Part shown: in pieces, positions 378 through 10,944 of the stretch
How positions within the stretch are numbered: position 1 is the stretch's first letter
Layout of the letters: the number at the start of each line of letters is the position of its first letter
Assembly: GCF_026343185.1 (NCBI RefSeq)
Contig: NZ_JAPEMA010000002.1
Coordinates: forward strand, 186,001 to 250,000
DNA: 64,000 bases
Source of the DNA: Streptomyces sp. NBC_00091
Lineage (GTDB): Bacteria; Actinomycetota; Actinomycetes; Streptomycetales; Streptomycetaceae
Direction of reading: 5' to 3'
Notes under the pieces: generated by a model
What the model was told of the DNA's origin: nothing
Seen by the model: only the letters and a program-made list of their open reading frames with translations
The model's database searches: none
Made by a program: the position numbers and the translations under genes

Positions 378-896
378 GTGAAGAACGAGTCCGTGGTCCC
401 GATCCCGGAAACCGAGTACCGCCGCGTGTGGGACCGCTTCCACGCGGAGTTCGGGTTTCGGCCCAGCGTGAACCCAGCGCAGTGGCCGTCCATCGAGGAA
501 CCCGTGGCCTCGGCCACCTGGAGCTTGGCGTCGCTGGATGACGACCCTGGCGACGAGGGGCTCGACCGACTGGTCGATGCGGTCCGGCAAGGACTGACGG
601 CCTGCGTTCCTCCGCAGGGCAGGCTGTTCGCGCTGGACTGGCAACACGTCTCGTTCCAGTTTTCGCCCCACCTGGCCGGAAAGCCAGGACAGAAGCCGTG
701 GCCGCTGAGCCCGTATCCCGATGGCGACTACTACATCTACCTCACCGAAGACTTCTCGACCGGCAGCTTCGGGCACCCCTGGGAGGGGACGCTGTGCCTG
801 TTCGGGCAGGGGCTCCTCGATCTCGTGGGAGCGCAGGTCGATGAGGTTCTCGGCGCGCCGATACGCAGAGCCGGTCGGCCTGTTCATCGTCAGTAG
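378..896 (+). CDS. DUF2716 family protein
   Basis: A 172-residue protein starting at GTG 378. The sequence matches what I know of DUF2716, a family of unknown function common in Streptomyces. Landmarks are YRRVWDRFHAEFGF near residue 14, DWQHVSFQFSPHLAG near residue 90, SPYPDGDYYIYL near residue 110 and FGHPWEGTLCLFG near residue 130. Length is normal for the family. No membrane or signal segment is visible. The last 7 bp overlap the convergent regulator gene. No function can be assigned. Confidence 0.85.
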   Translation: MKNESVVPIPETEYRRVWDRFHAEFGFRPSVNPAQWPSIEEPVASATWSLASLDDDPGDEGLDRLVDAVRQGLTACVPPQGRLFALDWQHVSFQFSPHLAGKPGQKPWPLSPYPDGDYYIYLTEDFSTGSFGHPWEGTLCLFGQGLLDLVGAQVDEVLGAPIRRAGRPVHRQ

Positions 897-2218
897 TGCA
901 AACCGATGGCTCGGAGGCGTTCGAGGAGCTCGGCGACGGGAGTTGTCCGGGCGTAGCGGGTGAGTTCGGGTTCGAGGTCGCGGATCATCGTCACGCACCT
1001 GGGGGCGTCGATCCGGCCGGCCAGGTCGAGGGAGCGGGTGGCTGTTTCCGCCGCGATGTCGGGTTCGCCGTCGCGGAGGTAGGTCTCGGCCTGGTAGGTC
1101 AGGAACACCGAGGTGGTCTTGGCGCGGGTGGCGGGCAGCAGGGCGATGCCCTCGTCCATGAGCTGGTGGGCCTGGCGGCGCCGGCCGAGGTCCGCGAGGC
1201 AACGGCCGCTGTCCGCGGCCAGGTCGGCGTGTGACATCCACGAGCACCAGGCGGGGGCGGGATCGTACGACGGGGCCTCCAGCGCCTTCTCCGCGGCGGT
1301 GAGGGCCCGGCGGCACAACCCGTCCTCGTCGAGGACGGCGAGGGCGCGGGCCTGGCGCAGGTGGAGGAGGGACCGGGCGGTGGGGTGCCGGGTGCGGGGG
1401 ATGGCGTGCTCGAGGATGGCCGCCGCGGTGCGGGCGTCCTTGAGCCACAGCAATTGGTACGCGAGGTCGGACAGGATGCCCGCGCCGAGGTCGCGCTGGT
1501 GGGCGGTGTGAGCGTTGTGGAGGGCGGCGTGCCAGAAGCGGCCGGCGGAGGCGTGGCGGCGTTCGTCGAAGTGCTGCCAGGCGATGGCCTGCGAGAGGGA
1601 GGCGGCCAGGGTGTGCAGCCGCTGCCCGGCAACGGGGGTGTAGCGGGACTCGCTGATGAATTCGGTGACGGTGGTCAGGTGCGCGTCGAGCAGATGGCTG
1701 GTGCGTCGCCTGCGTTCGGTGGCGAAACGGATCAGCTCCGCCCCGGTCGCCTCCAGCCAGTCGAGCATCTCCGCATCGACTTCACCGGGCGCGGCGAAAC
1801 GCGGCAGCCGGCCGGGCTCGGTGATCGTCCACTGGTGGGCGAGAACGGCCAGCGAGGCGCTGGCGTAGGCGAGGAACGACCGGCGGTCCAGGGAGGTCAT
1901 CAGGGCCTCTTGCAGTGAGGGAACAGCATTCTGCGGGCCGAGCGGAAGCGGCTTGTCCTGGCCCGGGAGCCAGTTGGGCCAGCCGAGCTGGGCGACGGCC
2001 GCGTAGTCGATGCCGAAGACCTCGGCGATGAGCGGCTGGGATTCGTCTTCGTCGGGGGCGGCGCGGCCGGTCTCCCATTTGGAGACCCGCGACCCCCTGG
2101 TACCCGAGCGCAGGCCCCGGCGGGCGGCGGCCTTGCGGATTCGGCGGGCCAGCTCCTCCTGCGACCATCCGCGTTCGTTTCGGGCGTGCGCGAGGGGGTG
2201 GCGGATTTCGTCGTCCAC
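890..2218 (-). CDS. XRE-family transcriptional regulator, large type
   Basis: A 442-residue protein. An N-terminal helix-turn-helix (residues about 5-45, with SQEELARRI and SRVSKWETG) fits the XRE/Cro-CI family. A Ser-Leu-Asp-Arg-Arg-Ser-Phe stretch near residue 110 precedes a long all-helical, tetratricopeptide-like C-terminal half, as in Streptomyces regulators of this size. I chose GTG 2218 because the helix-turn-helix starts directly after it. The open frame continues upstream, but that part has no domain and crosses a repeat array. The gene diverges from the MSYDH/P450 operon across about 290 bp carrying four G-rich repeats, so a role as cluster regulator is an inference from position. 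The stop overlaps the end of the DUF2716 gene. Confidence 0.85.
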   Translation of the reverse strand: MDDEIRHPLAHARNERGWSQEELARRIRKAAARRGLRSGTRGSRVSKWETGRAAPDEDESQPLIAEVFGIDYAAVAQLGWPNWLPGQDKPLPLGPQNAVPSLQEALMTSLDRRSFLAYASASLAVLAHQWTITEPGRLPRFAAPGEVDAEMLDWLEATGAELIRFATERRRRTSHLLDAHLTTVTEFISESRYTPVAGQRLHTLAASLSQAIAWQHFDERRHASAGRFWHAALHNAHTAHQRDLGAGILSDLAYQLLWLKDARTAAAILEHAIPRTRHPTARSLLHLRQARALAVLDEDGLCRRALTAAEKALEAPSYDPAPAWCSWMSHADLAADSGRCLADLGRRRQAHQLMDEGIALLPATRAKTTSVFLTYQAETYLRDGEPDIAAETATRSLDLAGRIDAPRCVTMIRDLEPELTRYARTTPVAELLERLRAIGLHY

Positions 2219-2269
2219 CCGCCCATTGCACCACCCGTTCCGCGCCCCGGGGAGCTGTTCCGGAGGACC

Positions 2270-2315
2270 GGGGATAGGGCGGGGATAGGGCGGGGGGGAT
2301 AGGGCGGGGATAGGG
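2270..2315. repeat. four tandem copies of GGGGATAGGGC upstream of the RiPP operon
   Basis: Four copies of the 11-mer GGGGATAGGGC (the third preceded by extra Gs, the last ending in a T-rich flank) lie in the divergent promoter region between the XRE gene and the MSYDH gene. Such phased repeats could be operator sites for the regulator. The repeated G-runs could also fold as a G-quadruplex. Neither is shown by the sequence alone. Confidence 0.8.
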
Positions 2316-2510
2316 ATTTGGCCTGGGCATCGCGGCTGGCGGCCGCTGTACTCGTCGTGTTCCGTCCGGCGCCCCGCGCGCGACTGGGCGGAGCGGAGCG
2401 CGGTGACGAAGTCGCCCCCGGCCGCCTCGTCATGCCCGCCGGGCGAGGCCGGCCGGAGCCTTCGCCGTCGCCGGACGCCCACCGCCGCCGACGCACAGGG
2501 AGGGGCTGCC

Positions 2511-2528
2511 ATGTCGTACGACCACTGA
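2511..2528 (+). CDS. pentapeptide precursor MSYDH of a biarylitide-like minimal RiPP
   Basis: An 18-bp gene, ATG TCG TAC GAC CAC TGA, encoding Met-Ser-Tyr-Asp-His. A strong Shine-Dalgarno sequence (AGGGAGGGG at 2497-2505) ends five bases before the ATG. The gene lies 66 bp upstream of a cytochrome P450 start on the same strand. Established knowledge: biarylitides come from genes of exactly this size, such as bytA of Planomonospora encoding MRYYH, whose Tyr and His are joined by the adjacent P450. This peptide keeps Met1, Tyr3 and His5. Residue 2 is Ser and residue 4 is Asp. If maturation is similar, Met-Ser is the leader and Tyr-Asp-His the core. Asp4 is notable because an Asp/Asn-beta-hydroxylase-like gene lies in the same operon. 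Chance occurrence of a short reading frame is the main alternative. Confidence 0.8.
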   Translation: MSYDH

Positions 2529-2541
2529 GCCCGAGGAACCC

Positions 2542-2572
2542 GGGGCGGGCCCGCTGAGGGCGGGCCCGCCCC
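2542..2572 (+). terminator. perfect 13-bp hairpin between precursor gene and P450
   Basis: Arms GGGGCGGGCCCGC (2542-2554) and its exact complement (2560-2572) flank a 5-base loop TGAGG. A C/T-rich stretch, but no T-run, follows. The hairpin lies 13 bp after the MSYDH stop and 22 bp before the P450 start. It could be a partial terminator or an RNA-stabilising structure that sets the precursor:enzyme ratio, as is common in RiPP operons. That role is inferred. Confidence 0.7.
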
Positions 2573-2594
2573 TCCCACTCCGGAAGGACGCGAG

Positions 2595-3764
2595 ATGCCG
2601 TCTGCGACCGACCGCTACGACCCCCTGGCCGCGGAGATCCTGCGCGACCCGTACCCGGTGCTGGCCGAACTGCGTGAGCGCGAGCCGGTGTTCTGGCACG
2701 AGGGCATGGACTCGTGGGGGCTGACCCGGTACGCGGACTGCGTGCGGGTGCTGCGCGACCACGAGACCTTCGCACGCGACCCGCGGCGCACCGGAGGCAC
2801 GGTGCCCGTGCCGAGCCTGAGCGTGCAGACCCTCGACCCGCCGCGGCAGAGCCGGGTCCGCTCCCTGTTCATGAGCGCGCTGCGCGCCCAGGACCTGGGT
2901 GCGGTCGAGGAGCGTGCCCGCCTGCTGGTGCTGGCCCGGCTGGGCGAGCTGGCGGGTGCCGGCCCGTTCGATGTGGTGGCCGAGATCGCGGTGCCGCTGT
3001 CCGTGGCGGTCGTGGCCGATCTGCTGGGCGTCGAGGCCCCGCCGTACGGGGAGTTCGCCGCGGTGTCGGACGCGATCATGCGGAGCATGGACGGCGGCCT
3101 CAACCCGGCCCTCGTCGAGCCGGGCCGCGTCGCCCGCCGGCAGCTGAGCGACCTGGTCGACTCCTGGTTCGCGGCCTCGGCCCGGCCCGGCCTGCTGGCC
3201 CGGGTGCGGCAGGCCACGGTGCGTGACTCCGACGCGCTCACCCGGCTGTACGTGAAGAACACGGCGCGGGTGATGTTCCAGGGCGGGTACAGCACGCTGG
3301 CGGCCGCCGTCGGCAACGCCGTGCACACCCTCCTCGCCCACCCGGGGGCCCTGCACCAGATGCGCGGCCGGACACTACTGGCCACGGGCGCTGATGAACT
3401 GGTGCGCTTCGACGGGCCGGTGCAGGGCACCACGCGTACGGCGGTGCGGGCGTGCCGGATCGGCACGGTGCACATCACACCCGGGCAGAAGGTCGTCCCG
3501 CTGTTCGCGGCGGCCAACCGCGACCCGGCCGCCTTCACCCGGGCGGACGAGCTGGTGCTGGACCGCACCCCGAACCGCCACCTCGGCTACGGGTGGGGGC
3601 CGCACTCCTGCATCGGGACATCCGTCGCCCAGGCAGGGCTGCGCGCCCTGATCGCAGCCCTGAACGGCCACCCGGCCCGGCCGGCCGCCGCCGGCGAGGG
3701 CGTACGGCGCCGCACGGCGACCATGCGGGCCTTCGACACGCTGCCCGCAGTGCTCCTTCCCTGA
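2595..3764 (+). CDS. cytochrome P450, predicted biarylitide-type Tyr-His cross-linking enzyme
   Basis: A 389-residue bacterial P450. The haem loop GYGWGPHSCIG puts the Cys ligand at residue 339, and the K-helix E-x-x-R is at 268-271. The I-helix region around 225-236 reads RVMFQGGYSTLA, so the usual Ala-Gly-x-(Glu/Asp)-Thr oxygen-activating pair is absent. Such loss is known in P450s that couple aromatic rings instead of hydroxylating. ATG 2595 has GGAAGG at good spacing. The gene directly follows the MSYDH gene, the arrangement of biarylitide clusters, where the P450 forms a biaryl bond between Tyr and His of the pentapeptide. It starts an operon-like run of five same-strand genes. The cross-linking role is inferred; the P450 fold is clear. 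Confidence 0.9.
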   Translation: MPSATDRYDPLAAEILRDPYPVLAELREREPVFWHEGMDSWGLTRYADCVRVLRDHETFARDPRRTGGTVPVPSLSVQTLDPPRQSRVRSLFMSALRAQDLGAVEERARLLVLARLGELAGAGPFDVVAEIAVPLSVAVVADLLGVEAPPYGEFAAVSDAIMRSMDGGLNPALVEPGRVARRQLSDLVDSWFAASARPGLLARVRQATVRDSDALTRLYVKNTARVMFQGGYSTLAAAVGNAVHTLLAHPGALHQMRGRTLLATGADELVRFDGPVQGTTRTAVRACRIGTVHITPGQKVVPLFAAANRDPAAFTRADELVLDRTPNRHLGYGWGPHSCIGTSVAQAGLRALIAALNGHPARPAAAGEGVRRRTATMRAFDTLPAVLLP

Positions 3765-3847
3765 CCTGACCTCACCCCGGCCCCGGTGCCGCGAGGCGCC
3801 GTACGGAGCGTCCGTCCGCGTCCGTCCACCTCTTCAGGAGTCCCGCT

Positions 3848-5254
3848 GTGCGCATCCTCATCGGCAACCACATCGATCCCTCGATCCGCGAGCGCGGCGA
3901 CATGCGGGCCTGGACGCAGCGCCTGCTGTGGTTCGCGCGCCCCGGGGACCTGCTCATCCTGTGCTGCGAGCCGGACGCGGCGTTCGTCGACCACGCCCTG
4001 GCCCACACCGGTGTGAAGCGCGAGGAGCTGACCGTGCTGGCCGCACCGGCCGGGGCGTGGGGCGAGCGGCTGCTCGATCCCGCCTCCCTGACCGTGCCCG
4101 CGTTCGTGGAGCAGGTGCGGGCCGCCCTCGCTCCGGCCGGGGCCGACGCGGTGAGCGAGGTGTTCGCGCTGTGGCCGTCGGCCGCCGTGGCGCGGCTCGC
4201 AGACGCCCTGGGCGTGGCCGACCGCCTCCCGGGGGCCGCCTTCTTCGGGCAGGGCGGCGGGGAGATCGGCAACAGCAAGGCGAACTTCCGGGCCCTGGCG
4301 GCGGCGGCCGGGGTGCCGATCCTGCCGGGCCGGGTCTGCCGCTCGGTCTCCGAGGCGGTCGACGCGACGGGCGCGCTGCTGGAGCACTCCGCGTCCGGGG
4401 CCGTCGTGGTCAAGCAGGCCCACAACGGGGCCGGAGTCGGCAACCAGCTGCTCGTACGCGAGCCGGAGACGGCCGTGGACCACGTCGGTGCCCGGCACCT
4501 GCACCACCTGGCCCCGGGCCCGGACGGCATCGCCGCGTACTGGGCCGAGCGGTGGCCGTGGGCGAGCGGGGAAGGCCGGTGGCCGGTCGTCGTCGAGGAG
4601 TTCGCGCCCGGCGCGGAGGCGGTGTACTCCGAGCACTACGCCGCCGACACCGGCACCCGGGCCACCGAGATGGGCCGCCTGCGGTACGTCGGGCGGCGTC
4701 TGAGCCACCAGGTCGTGCCGCTGGACGGCGTCACCGAGCAGGTGCGGGCGGCCCTGCTGGACGGCGGTGCCCAGCTGGCCGAGGCGTACCGGGCGATGGG
4801 CTACCGCGGGTACCTGAGCGCGGACGCCCTGGTCCTGCCCGGCGGCGCCGTGGTGTTCACCGAGGTCAACGCCCAGGTCAGCGGGTCGCTGCACATCTAC
4901 CGGTCGATCGCCCACGGCATCGTCGACATCGCCGCCGCCCCACCGAGGCAGGTGGTCGAGTACCACGTCCCGCCCACCTGGGCCGTGCCCTCGTTCGCCG
5001 CCTTCCTGGCCGCGCTCGACGAGCTGGGCCTGATGTACGACCCGGCCGCCCGGACCGGGGTGATCGTGTCGATGCCCGCCCTGCCCCTCTCCCCCGGGGC
5101 GCCGGTGCAGTTCGTGTTCTGCCTCGCCTACGACCCCGCCGAGGGCCACGCGGGCGTGTTCGACCGGCTCGACGCGCGGTTCGCGAGCGTATCCGCCGGC
5201 ACTTACGACGCCAGCCAGCACGTCGGCACCGGCGCCGTGTCCTTCTCCTCCTGA
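3848..5254 (+). CDS. ATP-grasp peptide ligase, PGM1-like
   Basis: A 468-residue protein starting at GTG 3848 after TTCAGGAGT. It resembles the pre-ATP-grasp/ATP-grasp ligases of the pheganomycin PGM1 and ketomemicin type. Landmarks are an N-terminal Rossmann-like half (to about residue 150), SKANFRALAAAAGV near residue 142, GAVVVKQAHNGAGVGNQ near residue 190 (Lys and Gly-rich loop for ATP), and a late acidic metal-binding strand FTEVNAQVSGS near residue 338. In pheganomycin, PGM1 couples an N-terminal guanidino amino acid to a ribosomally made peptide. Here the gene sits in a run with a ribosomal pentapeptide and an amidinotransferase, so the same chemistry is an attractive inference. Substrate identity cannot be read from sequence. 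Confidence 0.82.
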   Translation: MRILIGNHIDPSIRERGDMRAWTQRLLWFARPGDLLILCCEPDAAFVDHALAHTGVKREELTVLAAPAGAWGERLLDPASLTVPAFVEQVRAALAPAGADAVSEVFALWPSAAVARLADALGVADRLPGAAFFGQGGGEIGNSKANFRALAAAAGVPILPGRVCRSVSEAVDATGALLEHSASGAVVVKQAHNGAGVGNQLLVREPETAVDHVGARHLHHLAPGPDGIAAYWAERWPWASGEGRWPVVVEEFAPGAEAVYSEHYAADTGTRATEMGRLRYVGRRLSHQVVPLDGVTEQVRAALLDGGAQLAEAYRAMGYRGYLSADALVLPGGAVVFTEVNAQVSGSLHIYRSIAHGIVDIAAAPPRQVVEYHVPPTWAVPSFAAFLAALDELGLMYDPAARTGVIVSMPALPLSPGAPVQFVFCLAYDPAEGHAGVFDRLDARFASVSAGTYDASQHVGTGAVSFSS

Positions 5255-5268
5255 CCGGGAGCCTCACC

Positions 5269-6237
5269 ATGACCACCTCCCCCACCGAAGCCGCCGGGGC
5301 CGCCGGGGCCGCCCAGCTCCTCCCCGTCTTCGACGCCGGCCGGCTCGCCGACGAACTCGCCGCCGTCACCGCCCACACCTGGAACGTGCAGCGCACGCAC
5401 ACCTACGGCGGCCAGGTCGGCCTGCCCGCCACGATCGACTGGCGGGTCCTGCCGCTGCGCAGCCTCGGCGGCGATCCGGAGCGCACCGACCCGGGCGGCC
5501 CCGGGCCGCAGCCGTTCGCGGCGACGCGCTGGCTCGGCCGGCTGCCCTACCTCGCGGAGATCCTGGACTCGGTCCCGGCCCCGCTGAACGCCGTCCGGCT
5601 GATGGCGCTGGGTCCGGGCGCCGTCTCGAACCCGCACTGCGACCCCAAGTACCGCCTGGACCGGGGCATCGTGCGCCTGCACATCCCCGTCGTCACCGAC
5701 CCGGGCGCCGTACTCGTCCTGGACGGCGTCAAACACTGCTGGCAGCCGGGCACCCTCTGGTACGGCGACTTCTCCCGCGAACACCTGGTGCGCAACACCA
5801 GCTGGAAGGTGACCCGGGTCCACGTAGTCATCGACGCCCTGCTCACTGCGGACCTCGCCGCCTGGTTCCCGGACTCCTGGCAGGAACTCCTCACCCACGG
5901 CGAGGTCCTCCTCAACCACACCGGCCCCGCCACGGCTCCCGCCTGGCCCGCCGAGCTGCCGTACGAGGCGCTGCTGCCGTCCGGGTTCGCGGACTTCGAC
6001 TCGGCCGCCCCGCTGGACGGCTCCCTCATCCCCGCCCGCATCGACCTCGGCGGCGACGGCGTCCTCGCCCTGACGATCGCCGGGCGCGCCTTCGCGCTCC
6101 TCCCGGTCGACGAGGCCGAGTTCCGCTTCTCCGGCTGGAGCGAGCAGCGCACCCTCCAGCCGCAGGGCGACGGCGGCCTGACCCTGCGGGTCCGGCGCGG
6201 CCGCGCGCTCGCCGACCGGCAGGTGAGCGCCAGGTGA
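5269..6237 (+). CDS. aspartyl/asparaginyl beta-hydroxylase-like Fe(II)/2-oxoglutarate oxygenase
   Basis: A 322-residue protein starting at ATG 5269, 15 bp after the ligase gene. Residues about 105-190 match the Asp/Asn beta-hydroxylase fold: NAVRLMALGPGAVSNPH with H123 and D125 as probable iron ligands, a double-stranded beta-helix core, KHCWQPGTLWYGDF, H172 in the position of the second His, then RVHVVIDA. The C-terminal 130 residues have no assigned domain. The family hydroxylates Asp, Asn or related side chains using O2 and 2-oxoglutarate. In this operon the only ribosomal substrate candidate, MSYDH, contains an Asp next to the cross-linked His. Free amino acid building blocks are the alternative substrate. 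Confidence 0.85.
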   Translation: MTTSPTEAAGAAGAAQLLPVFDAGRLADELAAVTAHTWNVQRTHTYGGQVGLPATIDWRVLPLRSLGGDPERTDPGGPGPQPFAATRWLGRLPYLAEILDSVPAPLNAVRLMALGPGAVSNPHCDPKYRLDRGIVRLHIPVVTDPGAVLVLDGVKHCWQPGTLWYGDFSREHLVRNTSWKVTRVHVVIDALLTADLAAWFPDSWQELLTHGEVLLNHTGPATAPAWPAELPYEALLPSGFADFDSAAPLDGSLIPARIDLGGDGVLALTIAGRAFALLPVDEAEFRFSGWSEQRTLQPQGDGGLTLRVRRGRALADRQVSAR

Positions 6238-6304
6238 CCGCCAGGTGACCGCCGCAGCACGCACCCCCTGAGCGCCCCGCACACCATTCGAGAGGAACAC
6301 CCCC

Positions 6305-7456
6305 ATGCCCCGCCTGAACAGCCACGACGAATTCACCCCGCTCAAGGAGGTCATCGTCGGGTCCGCCGCCAACTACGTGGGTCACGACCGCGACGTCAGC
6401 TTCGAGCTGTTCCACCACGAGAACCTGAAGGGCTTCCGGTCGGACTGGGCCTATCCGCGCCTGACCCGGGCGGCGGCCGGCCACCGGGAGAGCTGGACCA
6501 TCAAGCAGCGGTACGCCGAGGAGCTGCACGAGGACGTCGAGGCCCTGGCCGCCACGCTCGCCGCACTCGGGGTCACCGTGCACCGGCCGCTGCCCCTGCC
6601 CCCGGACGCGGCACCCATCGCGGGCCTGGGCTGGGAGGCCGCACCCACCCCCGCGCTGAACATCCGCGACAACACGCTGATCCTCGGCGACGAAATCATC
6701 GAGACGCCTCCCGCGATCCGCTCCCGCTACCTGGAAACCCGCCTGCTCGCCCCCACCTTCACCGGCTACTGGGAGAACGGCGCGCGGTGGACGACGATGC
6801 CCCGCCCCACCCTCACCGACAACTCCTTCGACCTGGCCTACGCGCGGGACACCGCGACCACCCTGGGCGGGCCGACCGAGGCCATCGACGACCCGCAGCC
6901 GAGCCCGTACGACGTCGGCCTGGAGATGATGCTGGACGGCGCGCAGGTGCTGCGGCTGGGCCGCGACCTGATCGTCAACGTCGCGCAGGAGAACCACAGC
7001 AGGGGCGCGGCGTGGCTGGAGCGGCACCTCGGCCACCGGTACCGCGTCCACCGGGTGTGGCGGATGGCGGACAACCACATCGACAGCATGGTCCTCGCCC
7101 TGAAGCCGGGGGTGTTCCTGGCCCGGCACGGCGGCATCCGGGAGCTGATGCCCGAGCCGCTGCGCTCGTGGCGCTACATCGTGCCGCCGGAGCCGGACGC
7201 GGGGGCGTTCCCGGTCTACGACGACTACGAGGACCTGGTCCTCACCAGCCCCTACATCGACCTCAACGTGCTCTCGGTCGACGAGCGCACCGTGCTGGTC
7301 AACGAGGAGTGCACCGGCCTGGTCAAGACCCTGGAGACCGAGGGCTTCGAGGTGGTGCCCGTACGGCACCGGCACCGGAGGCTGTTCGGCGGAGGGTTCC
7401 ACTGCTTCACCCTGGACACGCACCGCACCGGCGGCTTCGAGGACTATCTGTCGTGA
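6305..7456 (+). CDS. amidinotransferase (glycine amidinotransferase-like)
   Basis: A 383-residue protein starting at ATG 6305 with GAGAGGAAC upstream. It belongs to the guanidino-modifying superfamily of arginine:glycine and inosamine amidinotransferases. An N-terminal NSHDEFTPLKEVIVGS segment, DAAPIAGLGWEAAPTPALNIRDN, ADNHIDSMVLALKPG and the C-terminal GGGFHCFTLDTHR are visible. Cys367 is the expected nucleophile that receives the amidino group from arginine, with the His-Ile-Asp pair as catalytic partner. Length is normal. Guanidino groups made by such enzymes cap pheganomycin- and ketomemicin-type peptides, which also use ATP-grasp ligases. The stop overlaps the next start by four bases, so translation is coupled. 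Confidence 0.9.
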   Translation: MPRLNSHDEFTPLKEVIVGSAANYVGHDRDVSFELFHHENLKGFRSDWAYPRLTRAAAGHRESWTIKQRYAEELHEDVEALAATLAALGVTVHRPLPLPPDAAPIAGLGWEAAPTPALNIRDNTLILGDEIIETPPAIRSRYLETRLLAPTFTGYWENGARWTTMPRPTLTDNSFDLAYARDTATTLGGPTEAIDDPQPSPYDVGLEMMLDGAQVLRLGRDLIVNVAQENHSRGAAWLERHLGHRYRVHRVWRMADNHIDSMVLALKPGVFLARHGGIRELMPEPLRSWRYIVPPEPDAGAFPVYDDYEDLVLTSPYIDLNVLSVDERTVLVNEECTGLVKTLETEGFEVVPVRHRHRRLFGGGFHCFTLDTHRTGGFEDYLS

Positions 7457-8742
7457 CGGGCCGGGGGGTGCTGCTGCTGGACGCGGGCGGCCCCGAGTCG
7501 GGCGCCCTCGCCAGGGCGGCGGCGGCCCGGGGGCACCCGGTGCACGCCGCGACTGCCACCGCCGCAGCGTACGCAGGCTACGGACCGGAGTTGAAGGCCC
7601 TGCTGGCCGGGCGGGTCGTCACCGACTTCGCCCGGCCCGACCGGGCCCTCGCCGAGATCGTGGCGTACGCCCGCCGCTACGATATCGGCGCGGTGCTGAC
7701 CGTCAACGAGTACCTGACCGAGCTCACCGCGCTCGTCTGCGCCGAGCTGGGGGTACCGGGCAACGACCCGGGCCGGGCGCGGGCCGCCCGTGACAAGGCC
7801 GCCATGGCGGAGGCCTTCGCCGCGTACGGGGTGCGCACCCCGTACACGGTCCTCGTCCGGGACGACGCCGGGCTGCGGGCCGCGCCCGAGGACCCTCGTA
7901 TCGGCTTCCCGTACGTCGTCAAGCCGGTCTCCGGGGCGGGCTCCGCCGGCGTCACGGTGGTGACCGGCCCGGCCGGGGCCGCCACGGCGGCCGACGCCGC
8001 CCGGGCGGTGACCGGCATGTACGGCAGCGGGTTCCCGGGCATCCTCGTCCAGGCGTACGCCGCAGGAACGGAGTACAGCGTCGAGTCGGTCACGCAGGGC
8101 GGCACCACGACACACCTCGCGGTAACCCGCAAGCGGGTGACCGGCGGCCCGAGAAGAGTCGAGACGGGACACAGCCTCCCCATCCACCTGCCCCCGGCCG
8201 TCGAGGCGGCCGCGTACCGCGAGGTGGAAGCGGCCATCGCGGCGGCCGGCATCCGTCACGGCGCCTCGCACACCGAGGTCATCGTCGGCGCGGACGGGCG
8301 GTGCACGGTCATCGAGATCGCCGCCCGCCTCGCCGCCGGGCAGATCGGGGTCCTGATCCAGCACGCCCTGGGCATCGACGTCTGGACGGCCCTGCTCGAC
8401 ACCGCCCTCGGCCGCCCGGCCGAACTCACCCCCACCGCCGGCGGGTACGCGACCGTACGGTTCCTGACCAGCCCCCGCACCGGACGGCTGACCTCTGTCT
8501 CCGGGCTCCCGAAGCCGCAACCGGGCGTACCGTTCGTCCGCCGGCGGGCGGCGATCGGCGACACGGTCCACGAGCCGAGCACCAACAGCCACCGGCTGGG
8601 CTCGTTCGTGGTCACCGGCTCGGACGCCGCCGAGGTCGAGGAGCGGGCCGACGCGCTCCTGCGGCGGGTCCGGATCGGCGTGCAGCCGCTCCCCGGGCCC
8701 GCTCAGGCCAGGCCCGCGAGCACCTCGGCCATCGCGCCGTAG
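7453..8742 (+). CDS. second ATP-grasp ligase (L-amino acid ligase-like)
   Basis: A 429-residue protein starting at GTG 7453, inside the GTGA overlap with the amidinotransferase stop. An N-terminal Rossmann-type half is followed by an ATP-grasp domain with GFPYVVKPVSGAGSAGVTVV near residue 155, EYSVESVTQGG near residue 210 and IEIAARLAAGQIG near residue 288. It resembles biotin-carboxylase-type ATP-grasp enzymes such as dipeptide-forming L-amino acid ligases. It is distinct from the PGM1-like gene in the same operon. The pathway may therefore form two acyl-amide bonds, or this enzyme may make a building block. The last 40 bp overlap a convergent gene. Confidence 0.85.
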   Translation: MTGRGVLLLDAGGPESGALARAAAARGHPVHAATATAAAYAGYGPELKALLAGRVVTDFARPDRALAEIVAYARRYDIGAVLTVNEYLTELTALVCAELGVPGNDPGRARAARDKAAMAEAFAAYGVRTPYTVLVRDDAGLRAAPEDPRIGFPYVVKPVSGAGSAGVTVVTGPAGAATAADAARAVTGMYGSGFPGILVQAYAAGTEYSVESVTQGGTTTHLAVTRKRVTGGPRRVETGHSLPIHLPPAVEAAAYREVEAAIAAAGIRHGASHTEVIVGADGRCTVIEIAARLAAGQIGVLIQHALGIDVWTALLDTALGRPAELTPTAGGYATVRFLTSPRTGRLTSVSGLPKPQPGVPFVRRRAAIGDTVHEPSTNSHRLGSFVVTGSDAAEVEERADALLRRVRIGVQPLPGPAQARPASTSAIAP

Positions 8743-9701
8743 CTCTCGCGGACCGCTTCCGCCTTGGCCAGCCGGTGGCGCTCCAGGCGGATCGTGCCGA
8801 GGTGCCGGGCCTCGTAGACCCTCGCCCGCCACACCGCGGCGGGCGAACGGTCCAGGGCGCCGTAGGCCTCCCAGAACGCGGTCCGCTCGTCCTCCTTGGC
8901 CGTCGCCATGCGGATGGTCCAGTCTGCGGCGGGGTCACCGAACCATGTGCGGTCGAAGTCCAGGACGCCGGTGATCGTCGGCTCGGGGGCTGCCGGGTCC
9001 ATCAGGGCGTTGACGGTCCACAGGTCCCCGGTCAGCAGCATGGGTTCGGTGACCTCGTCAAGCACCGCGCGGTGGTGCGCGGCCACTGCGGCGACCTTCC
9101 GTACGTCGGCCGCATCCAGGCCGACGCCGTCCAGGTCGGCGGCGATCTCCTCCAGCGACGCGATGACGGCCTCGCTCCACAGGGCGTACCCGGGGCCGTC
9201 GACGGGCCCGAAGTGCGGGCCCCGCACGCCGTGCACGGAGCGGGCGATGGCGCCGATCTCCCGGAAGAACGTCGGCCAGACCATACGAGGATACGTCCCC
9301 AAGTGCTCCGGAGCCGGGGTGCCGTCCAAATGGCTCTGGATCATCCAGTCCCGGTCGATCACCTCGTGCGACCAGTCCGCGGCGAGCACCCGCGGCATCA
9401 GCGGCGCGATCACCGCCAGCCACGGCAGGCTCGCGTACTCGTTCCTCATCAGGTGGCGCTCACTGCGGAACTGACGCCCCTCCTCCGGCGCGACCCGCAA
9501 GATCACCGGCCCCGCCCGCCCGGCCAGGACGACCCGGTAGACGCTGTTGTACATCCCCGTCCCCAGCTCGACGGCGGACACGGGCATGGCGTCGCCGCCG
9601 AAGGCCCGACGGCAGACCTCCCCGATCTCCTCCGCGGTCAGGGACTGCTGGAACGCCTCCGAGGCGCGCTCAACGGGCTGGAAGTCCATGCCGCTCAGCA
9701 T
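8703..9701 (-). CDS. aminoglycoside phosphotransferase (APH)-family kinase
   Basis: A 332-residue protein with the small-molecule kinase fold. TGDLWTVNALMD near residue 228 is the catalytic loop, with the base Asp in GDLW; the usual preceding His is replaced by Thr. VLDFDRTWFGDPAAD near residue 250 is the metal-binding Asp-Phe-Asp segment. An N-terminal lobe with VILRVAPEEG supplies the nucleotide-binding Lys/Arg region. The gene is convergent with the RiPP operon and overlaps its last gene by 40 bp. It could modify or detoxify the product, or be an unrelated resistance-type kinase. ATG 9701 is used; an ATG four codons later is equally possible. Confidence 0.85.
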   Translation of the reverse strand: MLSGMDFQPVERASEAFQQSLTAEEIGEVCRRAFGGDAMPVSAVELGTGMYNSVYRVVLAGRAGPVILRVAPEEGRQFRSERHLMRNEYASLPWLAVIAPLMPRVLAADWSHEVIDRDWMIQSHLDGTPAPEHLGTYPRMVWPTFFREIGAIARSVHGVRGPHFGPVDGPGYALWSEAVIASLEEIAADLDGVGLDAADVRKVAAVAAHHRAVLDEVTEPMLLTGDLWTVNALMDPAAPEPTITGVLDFDRTWFGDPAADWTIRMATAKEDERTAFWEAYGALDRSPAAVWRARVYEARHLGTIRLERHRLAKAEAVRESYGAMAEVLAGLA

Positions 9702-9751
9702 GCCCGGCCCACTGGCTGTCCGTCACATACACCGCGTAGGAGGTGCGGCTG

Positions 9752-9847
9752 GAACACACCCTCCCAGGTGACGCAGGCCCGCCACGGCGCAACAGTCCGC
9801 AGCTCCCTCCACGAGATGAGCGGGTGGTTACCTCGTCGCGGCACCGG
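9752..9847 (+). repeat. dispersed repeat, copy 1 (leader-like sequence)
   Basis: About 95 bp that recur with roughly three quarters identity at 16236-16330. Shared blocks include GGTGACGCAG, GCACGGCGCAACAG (CCACGGCGCAACAG here) and ACGAGATGAGC. This copy directly abuts a CRISPR-like repeat at 9848, where an array leader would be. Confidence 0.6.
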
Positions 9848-9875
9848 GGCTCATCCCCTCGGGCGCGGGGAGCAG
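9848..9875 (+). repeat. solitary CRISPR-like 28-bp repeat, unit 1
   Basis: A 28-bp dyad-symmetric unit centred on ATCCCCTCGGGCGCGGGGA. It matches the style of type I-E repeats of Streptomyces. It differs from the unit at 16727 at three positions. No second repeat occurs 61 bp to either side, so no array is called. Confidence 0.45.
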
Positions 9876-10008
9876 GTTTTCTGACCGTCGCGCACAAGCT
9901 CGTCGAGAACTCCTGGCCACACCACCGACCCGGACCCGCCACCAAGGCCCATGCCCCAGTCAGCGAGGGCCTTCTGCGTTCCGGGGGGCGAGACTGTCGC
10001 CCGCTCGC

Positions 10009-10944
10009 TCAGGGCTTCCTGACCTCCGCGAGGATGCCCGTCGCGCCATGCGCCTGGAGTTCGGCGGCGAGGCACGCGCCGAGCTTCTCCGGGGCATCCG
10101 CCGGGCCGGCGTCGGCCGCGGTCACCTGCTTCGAGCCGTCCAGCGAGGTGACGGCCGCCGACAGGTGGAGCAGCCCGTCCTCCTCGATCCTTCCCCACGC
10201 CCCGACCGGGACGGAACACCCACCATGCAGCTCGGACAGCAGCGCCCGTTCGGCCCGGACACAGGCGTCGACGGCCGGGTCACCCGTTCCCGCGAGGAGG
10301 CGCGCCGCCTCGGAACCGGCCCGGACCTGGACGCCGAGAGCCCCCTGACCGGGCGACGGAGGGAAGACGGCCGGGTCGAGCACCTGGTGGACCTCGGGCG
10401 TCACCCCCAGCCGGTTCAGCCCGGCCGCCGCCAGCACCACCGCGTCCAGCCGGTCCCGGCCCCTGATACGGGCCAGTCGGCCGGGGACGTTGCCCCGGAT
10501 CGGCACGACCTCCAGGTCCGGCCGCAGCACCAGCAGCTGGGCGACACGGCGCGGGGCCCCGGTGCCGACCCGGGCACCCTCGGGCAGCTCATCCAGCGTC
10601 GCGCCGCACAGCACATCCCGTACGTCCTCACGCGGGCCCGGCGTCGTCAGCAGCAGGGTCCCCTCGTGCACGGACGTCGGCAGGTCCTTCAACGAGTGCA
10701 CGACGACGTCCACCCGACCGGCCACCAGGGCCGCCTCCTGGTTGGTGGAGAAGGCCGAGCCGCCAGCCGTTTTCGCCACTTCGGCGAGGGTCGGCGTGAT
10801 CCGGTCCTGGTCGCCGCCCTCCAGGATGAGCTCCCGCTTGAACCGGACGTCCGGGAACAGCTCCGCCAGCGGTGCCAGCCACTCCGCAACCTGCGTCCTG
10901 GCCAGCTTGCTCGCTCTGGAACCGATCGTCACGACGGGACCCAT
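10009..10944 (-). CDS. hemC: hydroxymethylbilane synthase (porphobilinogen deaminase)
   Basis: A 311-residue cytoplasmic enzyme that joins four porphobilinogens into hydroxymethylbilane in tetrapyrrole synthesis. Key features are HSLKDLPT with catalytic Asp87, the Arg pair in GAPRRVAQLL near residue 131, SPGQGALG near residue 197, and Cys243 in HGGCSVP, the attachment point for the dipyrromethane cofactor. The gene is complete. It stands alone, without hemA, hemD or hemB, between the RiPP locus and transposon debris, so it is probably a second copy. An accessory or resistant isozyme, or haem supply for the nearby P450, are only guesses. Confidence 0.93.
   Translation of the reverse strand: MGPVVTIGSRASKLARTQVAEWLAPLAELFPDVRFKRELILEGGDQDRITPTLAEVAKTAGGSAFSTNQEAALVAGRVDVVVHSLKDLPTSVHEGTLLLTTPGPREDVRDVLCGATLDELPEGARVGTGAPRRVAQLLVLRPDLEVVPIRGNVPGRLARIRGRDRLDAVVLAAAGLNRLGVTPEVHQVLDPAVFPPSPGQGALGVQVRAGSEAARLLAGTGDPAVDACVRAERALLSELHGGCSVPVGAWGRIEEDGLLHLSAAVTSLDGSKQVTAADAGPADAPEKLGACLAAELQAHGATGILAEVRKP

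Follow-up and report, generated by a model that had tools for sequence, protein, structure and literature searches.

The window, by which we mean the whole stretch of 64,000 nucleotides of Streptomyces sp. NBC_00091 that was analysed, contains a five-codon gene for the pentapeptide MSYDH next to a P450 gene, and the locus very likely adds one more member to the biarylitides, a peptide family described recently. Genes of this type have been called the smallest kind of gene known (PMC13417212), and the MSYDH gene is a case of this kind that was confirmed through conservation and not by eye. Of the 277 biarylitide clusters described by Padva et al. 2026, 47 have Asp at position 4 (Asp4) and a Pgm1 ligase (PMC13417212), and the window very likely belongs to that group. 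New here are a six-gene cassette found in 28 loci, an association of Asp4 with ATP-grasp ligases, a hairpin behind the peptide gene, and a variant precursor, MRYDHCL. Our best explanation of the locus, which we hold to be probable, is that the P450 joins Tyr3 and His5 of MSYDH and that a PGM1-type ligase then caps the freed N-terminus of Tyr-Asp-His with a guanidino acid. The features of the locus are collected in Table 1.

Table 1. Features of the pentapeptide locus, with positions counted from the first letter of the window
Feature	Position	Strand	Basis
NsdA-family TPR regulator, divergent from operon	890..2230	-	NCBIfam NF053720, 316 bits (cut-off 75)
Shine-Dalgarno sequence AGGGAGGGG of pentapeptide gene	2497..2505	+	Sequence; GGAGG ends 7 nt before ATG
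18-bp gene, precursor pentapeptide MSYDH	2511..2528	+	ATG TCG TAC GAC CAC TGA, read from sequence; conserved in relatives
Uninterrupted 14-pair hairpin with one G-T pair, between 18-bp gene and P450	2542..2572	+	Fold of sequence, controls
P450 of biarylitide cross-linking clade, 389 aa, predicted to join Tyr3 and His5	2595..3764	+	Pfam/alignments, tree, predicted fold
PGM1-type ATP-grasp peptide ligase, 468 aa	3848..5254	+	Pfam PreAtp-grasp and PGM1_C; 256 bits to solved pheganomycin PGM1 3WVQ
2-Oxoglutarate/Fe (2OG) oxygenase, Asp/Asn beta-hydroxylase family	5269..6237	+	Pfam PF05118; motif, fold
Arginine-dependent amidinotransferase (by family), 383 aa	6305..7456	+	169 bits to StrB1 1BWD; also AGAT, HsvA, SxtG
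L-amino-acid-ligase-type ATP-grasp enzyme, 429 aa	7453..8742	+	Pfam LAL_C2, ATP-grasp_4
APH-family phosphotransferase, convergent with operon	8703..9701	-	Pfam APH

The precursor gene and its conservation

An earlier note on this DNA had proposed an MSYDH gene with a Shine-Dalgarno sequence before the P450. The gene is confirmed at 2511-2528, 66 bp before the ATG of the P450 (2595), and neither strand of the 64 kb window has a second MxYxH 18-mer. A frame of 18 bases is too short for gene finders, and it is absent from the genes listed for three plasmid records that carry MxYDH, their gene table being incomplete.

Relatives were collected by a protein search of named genomes with the P450 alone, which gave 24 loci; the 22 full-length ones were kept, and a P450 fragment (L023) and a match of 26% identity (L024) were left out. 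An MxYDH frame preceded by a purine-rich stretch is found 79-134 bp upstream of the matched P450 start in 22/22 of these relatives. Tyr3, Asp4, and His5 are the same throughout, and residue 2 varies (16 Ser, four Phe, one Thr, and one Arg). Loss of the frame in homologous loci, which the earlier note had named as the outcome that would speak against its reading, did not occur. The hosts are Streptomyces, Kineosporia, Actinokineospora, Saccharothrix, Actinacidiphila, Catelliglobosispora, Streptomonospora, Frankia, and a Streptomycetaceae metagenome bin. No MxYxH frame arose when 21 related loci were shuffled in two-base blocks (20 times each, one strand, ATG or GTG starts, 8.45 Mb). A chance frame is rejected by the 22/22 conservation, by the shuffles, and by the frame being the sole such 18-mer in the window.

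With three plasmids and nine further genome stretches that were picked by motif, the Asp4 set comprises 35 distinct loci including the window. The Tyr-Asp-His core is thus present near P450 and ATP-grasp ligase genes in 34 other bacterial loci; because the set of 35 was picked by motif, the fixed core counts as evidence only in the 22.

The family was also followed in four further genome searches, with cut-offs of 1e-50 or 1e-55. As a rule, 4 to 6 candidates were scored per genome, and on this basis P450 matches were found in 45/392, 2/396, 11/397, and 29/297 genomes, yielding 72 loci that partly repeat the first 24 (e.g., L033 is L002 and L127 is L016). A biarylitide-type pentapeptide lies within the 1.5 kb flanks, upstream or downstream, in 63 of the 72. 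Five more precursors that are farther off or longer (L044, L045, L047, L052, L088) bring the number to 68, and no pentapeptide was found after the wider search in the remaining four (L097, L118, L123, L124).

Two loci, L068 (G212) and L070 (G049), have a seven-codon precursor, MRYDHCL, upstream of the P450 and behind a strong Shine-Dalgarno sequence; judged by its sequence, this is a biarylitide peptide of the Asp4 type, extended by Cys-Leu. Other motifs seen beside biarylitide-clade P450s are MDYPH (L092, L093), MSYIH (L095), MTYVH (L094), and MRHVH (L103), the last with His at both positions. L084 and L023 look like decayed copies: of the P450 just the C-terminal third is matched, and of PGM1 just the 137 N-terminal residues.

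The cassette around the pentapeptide gene

A cassette of P450, PGM1 ligase, 2OG oxygenase, amidinotransferase, L-amino-acid ligase, and phosphotransferase genes is found in 28 core loci (the window, L001-L022, L025-L027, L065, and L079). Within this set, L016 and L019 lack the oxygenase and L022 has only part of it, and PGM1 reads as fragments in L004 and L022. The phosphotransferase is found in 28/28 loci, being partial in L004. An extra methyltransferase precedes it in L027 (annotated) and L002 (Pfam), and by eye the same holds for L004, L017, and L022; an extra protein of 312-326 aa, without a Pfam match, is found at this place in L015, L016, and L065.

The catalytic motifs of the oxygenase and the amidinotransferase are intact. 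His123, Asp125, and His172 of the oxygenase are invariant in 17/17 rows. Its fold is nearest to the proline hydroxylases and AspH, and this places it among the 2OG oxygenases without fixing a substrate. The HID motif of the amidinotransferase and the HC motif with its catalytic Cys are each kept in 15/15 rows, and in 24 of 25 loci this protein shows the highest identity among the six that the cassette encodes. The phosphotransferase gave no match at E 0.001 when compared by sequence with solved structures; self-protection and phosphorylation of the product are possible roles for it. The NsdA-family protein, which has a relative of at least 48% identity in 13 of 25 core loci, likely regulates the operon.

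Among the seven window genes scanned with Pfam, no protease or exporter was found, and an Rfam search of 1500-10500 gave no match. In another Asp4 locus, a protein encoded beside the MSYDH gene (L071:9754-10713, minus strand) matches alpha/beta hydrolases and, more weakly, serine aminopeptidases (S33), and is a candidate leader peptidase. The minus-strand frame at 10009-10944 of the window resembles, by eye, hydroxymethylbilane synthase (hemC). Close to the cassette, 11256-12608 matches ISKra4-family transposase genes of Streptomyces plasmids.

Three of the core loci (L025, L026, L027) are on plasmids of Streptomyces strains, and in L025 and L026 a tyrosine recombinase gene is less than 5 kb from the P450. 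The presence of the cassette in several actinobacterial genera and on plasmids suggests that it has a selected function.

A hairpin follows the pentapeptide gene

The hairpin between the peptide gene and the P450 gene is likely a 3' end, an attenuator, or an RNA-stability element; it is not a textbook terminator, because no T run follows the stem. Its conservation was measured by comparing the 60 nt after the stop codon with 300 random windows of the same locus, a pass being a place in the top 5%. Of 35 Asp4 loci, 33 pass by stem length, 31 by folding energy, and 34 by either. The corresponding numbers for 39 other biarylitide loci are 30, 27, and 32; this set leaves out ten near-copies (P450s 91-96% identical), and 32/39 would probably be lower with them, because eight copy L054, which itself has no hairpin. 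The structure is tied to one site of the core loci. By the stem test, 26/27 pass after the peptide gene, 1/26 after the P450, 0/27 before the Shine-Dalgarno sequence, and 3/26 after the amidinotransferase, and the energy test gives 24, 2, 4, and 3 at the same four sites.

A short frame with a strong hairpin in front of an operon resembles an attenuator, and the 18-bp frame could on this ground be a translated leader, with the hairpin controlling transcription of the operon and the peptide not being a product. It is extremely improbable that this is its role. Across the 22/22 loci, variation is confined to residue 2, with Tyr, Asp, and His unchanged, and activity on such peptides has been proven for P450s of the same clade (PMC13417212). 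Moreover, the hairpin trails the peptide gene even where this gene is downstream of the P450 (L066, L071, L125), and at these loci, as in L126, where the frame is on the opposite strand, frame and hairpin cannot attenuate the operon.

One case appears to have been noticed earlier, since a supplementary figure legend mentions a predicted structure beside a terminator in the bytAO intergenic region (PMC8708641). No report of family-wide conservation was found by a paper search or by a search for terms in the main text of PMC13417212. As the hairpin is present in most family members tested, searches for genes overlooked by gene callers could be keyed to it.

The P450 belongs to the biarylitide clade

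The 34 Asp4 P450 rows form one branch (bootstrap 100, SH-aLRT 97) that is sister to the Streptomyces MRYAY P450s (100/99 together), and all biarylitide P450s group with P450Blt and RufO at 100/100. The first tree left out 13 rows that are 87-100% identical to a kept row, including the Asp4 rows L037 and L063; six more, long or outgroup rows, were left out of the second (L094, L097, L103, L118, outB, outD). L097, for which no precursor was found, is inside the Asp4 branch of the first tree. Ranked by E-value, P450Blt (TM 0.92) and peptide-bound RufO (0.91) are the first P450 matches of the AlphaFold model of the window P450 (mean pLDDT 86.5). Placement far from the cross-linking P450s, the second outcome that had been named against the biarylitide reading, was thus not seen, and that reading is supported by the frame in 22/22 relatives, by the clade of the P450, and by P450Blt as its best fold match.

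Residues that hold the peptide backbone in RufO are described as position 84, Arg188, and Arg231 (PMC12186263). Mapped through alignments, their equivalents are Gln78, Arg181, and Arg225 in 29/29 core rows, of which one is a duplicate (L037 is the same as L008). In seven outer Asp4 rows these residues are kept in 7, 4, and 0, respectively; the Arg231 equivalent is lost in all seven and the Arg188 equivalent in three. In the two MRYDHCL loci the P450 has Ser at the position of RufO Arg231. Arg61 of the window P450 is Arg in 36/36 Asp4 rows (one duplicate) and in 0/49 others, where Ser is found in 40. From this distribution Arg61 is a possible candidate for contact with Asp4; because the Asp4 P450s are one clade, the pattern is a single event.

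The I-helix of the window P450 is unlike that of most Tyr-His linkers. Val226, Gln229, Ser233, and Thr234 are found where P450Blt has Ala231, His234, Glu238, and Ser239 (numbering and Glu238-Ser239 pair as in PMC10929621), so that His234 and Glu238 become Gln and Ser. The earlier note had described an I-helix without the oxygen-activating residues. This is correct for the acid of the usual acid-alcohol pair, replaced by Ser233, but not for the alcohol, Thr234, which is present; nor does loss of the acid mark a cross-linker, because P450Blt, a proven cross-linker, keeps both members of the pair.

This difference from P450Blt would also fit a P450 that nitrates or otherwise modifies Tyr3 on a mere carrier pentapeptide, the modified residue being excised afterwards, in the manner of RufO in the rufomycin pathway; RufO is of the same clade and acts on MRYLH (PMC12186263). 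We regard such a role as very unlikely. Position 169, which is Asp in RufO and Val in P450Blt (PMC12186263), is Met in 29/29 core rows (one duplicate), RufO is in another branch of the tree, and no nitric oxide synthase domain was found among the seven window genes scanned.

Asp4 goes with ATP-grasp ligases

In a profile scan, a PGM1- or L-amino-acid-ligase-type ATP-grasp enzyme was found in 35/35 Asp4 loci. PGM1 is present in 32, and the other three (L066, L071, L126) have only the L-amino-acid-ligase type, the match in L071 being weak (26 bits, with Pfam LAL_C2 at its cut-off). The scan found PGM1 in 0/21 wide loci with other precursors or with none found. Weak ligase-profile matches in L129 and L131, located in open frames of more than 1,100 codons, probably represent other ATP-grasp enzymes. 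Because the Asp4 loci form one clade, the link between Asp4 and the ligases is a strong association that represents few independent events.

The conservation of Asp4 as the target of the Asp-hydroxylase-like enzyme was considered and rejected. Asp4 stays in loci without an oxygenase gene (L016, L019, and seven outer Asp4 loci), and the gene is also found in 3/21 non-Asp4 loci, namely with MRYAY (L069), with MRYLH (L083), and beside L136, where no precursor was found. As a ligase accompanies Asp4 in 35/35 loci and the oxygenase is missing from 9/35, it is reasoned that Asp4 follows the ligases and not the oxygenase. Asp4 may be the substrate of the oxygenase where both occur.

The pairing of Asp4 with an ATP-grasp enzyme, and with PGM1 in none of the other loci, would also be explained if the peptide were cross-linked but the ligases joined the side-chain carboxylate of Asp4 to an amine, in a graspetide-like manner and with no N-terminal cap; the persistence of Asp4 in L016 and L019 agrees with this as well. 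Such a use of Asp4 seems unlikely to us. The adjoining amidinotransferase fits capping, and pheganomycin PGM1 activates the guanidino acid, not the peptide. This enzyme, the closest characterised relative of the ligase, couples a guanidino acid with a core peptide (PMC8939145).

A model for the pathway

Capping of a cross-linked Tyr-Asp-His by the PGM1-type ligase remains our preferred reading, and the steps could be as follows. The 18-bp frame would be translated to Met-Ser-Tyr-Asp-His, and the hairpin likely serves to end or stabilise a short transcript and thereby to give more peptide than enzyme. The P450 would cross-link Tyr3 to His5 through a carbon-carbon or carbon-nitrogen bond, and an unlinked peptidase would remove Met-Ser. 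By analogy with myxarylin (PMC12951456), cross-linking probably comes first and leader removal later. The amidinotransferase of the cluster likely makes the guanidino acid with which the PGM1-type ligase likely caps the N-terminus. The L-amino-acid ligase may add a further amide bond, the 2OG oxygenase may hydroxylate, and the APH-type enzyme may phosphorylate or serve self-protection.

A guanidino-acyl cap is proposed because a PGM1-type ligase and an amidinotransferase are paired in the pheganomycin and ketomemicin pathways (PMC8939145, PMC11943689). The neutral mass of 431.144 that the earlier note gave for cross-linked Tyr-Asp-His agrees with our recalculation. The calculated values for its hydroxylated form and for MSYDH minus 2H are 447.139 and 649.217. 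Since the peptide belongs to a larger cassette, the free cross-linked tripeptide would more likely be an intermediate than the end product.

Several observations count against our explanation, namely the result with the sav cluster described below, the difference in the I-helix, the Arg losses in the outer Asp4 P450s, the four loci in which no pentapeptide was found, among them L097 from the Asp4 branch of the first tree, the three Asp4 loci without PGM1, and the lack of a protease or exporter in the scan of seven window genes. As members of one clade, the Asp4 loci also do not give independent observations of their traits. A wider proposal is offered tentatively, as one that may well turn out wrong: a mobile cassette would make a ribosome-plus-ligase hybrid, in which a P450-ringed Tyr-Asp-His, encoded by an 18-bp gene with its own conserved hairpin, carries hydroxylation, phosphorylation, and a guanidino-acyl cap built by the two ATP-grasp ligases and the amidinotransferase. 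This would be a compound class not yet isolated, with Asp4 as the substrate mark of the ligases.

Comparison with known systems

The earlier note took the Asp4 peptide for a new variant. This part of its claim does not stand, given the clusters with Asp4 and a Pgm1 ligase reported in PMC13417212. The window is like these 47 clusters in having Asp at position 4 (MSYDH) and a PGM1 homologue, the protein that scores 256 bits to 3WVQ. The strings 'MSY' and 'YDH' are absent from the main text of that paper, the Table S1 of which may list MSYDH, and so are the terms 'phosphotransferase', 'kinase', 'amino acid ligase', 'hairpin', and 'intergenic'. In a literature search with a scope that excluded supplementary tables, 'MSYDH' was found only in papers unrelated by title, and no paper had both 'YDH' and 'biarylitide'.

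RufO of rufomycin is a P450 of the same fold that acts on a pentapeptide. The window P450 differs from it in having Met162 in place of Asp at position 169 and in its separate branch of the tree, and nitric oxide synthase is lacking among the seven genes scanned. The pathways of pheganomycin (PGM1, 3WVQ) and ketomemicin (KtmD/KtmE) likewise combine a PGM1-type or ATP-grasp peptide ligase with an amidinotransferase. In contrast to them, the peptide partner at the window comes with a cross-linking P450, and no type III PKS or phenylglycine genes of the pheganomycin type were found among the seven window genes scanned.

The sav cluster of Saccharothrix variisporea (MRYVH; PMC13417212) resembles the window in combining a P450 with an amidinotransferase and an Asp/Asn-hydroxylase-like gene. 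It differs in that it is without Asp4, and the paper names two tailoring enzymes and no ligase for it. Expression of its amidinotransferase and hydroxylase gave only the plain cross-linked YVH (PMC13417212).

With the characterised biarylitides (P450Blt, BytO, SavB; MxYxH/Y) the window shares a five-codon MxYxH gene with a ribosome-binding site that is conserved near a P450, Tyr3 and His5, the clade and fold of the P450, and the backbone-holding residues. It differs from them in Asp4, in Ser2, and in the I-helix, which reads Val-Gln-Ser-Thr at P450Blt positions 231/234/238/239. To these elements the window adds a tailoring cassette with two ATP-grasp ligases. The presence of two ligases and an amidinotransferase predicts that biarylitide chemistry goes beyond the near-bare tripeptides that have been isolated.
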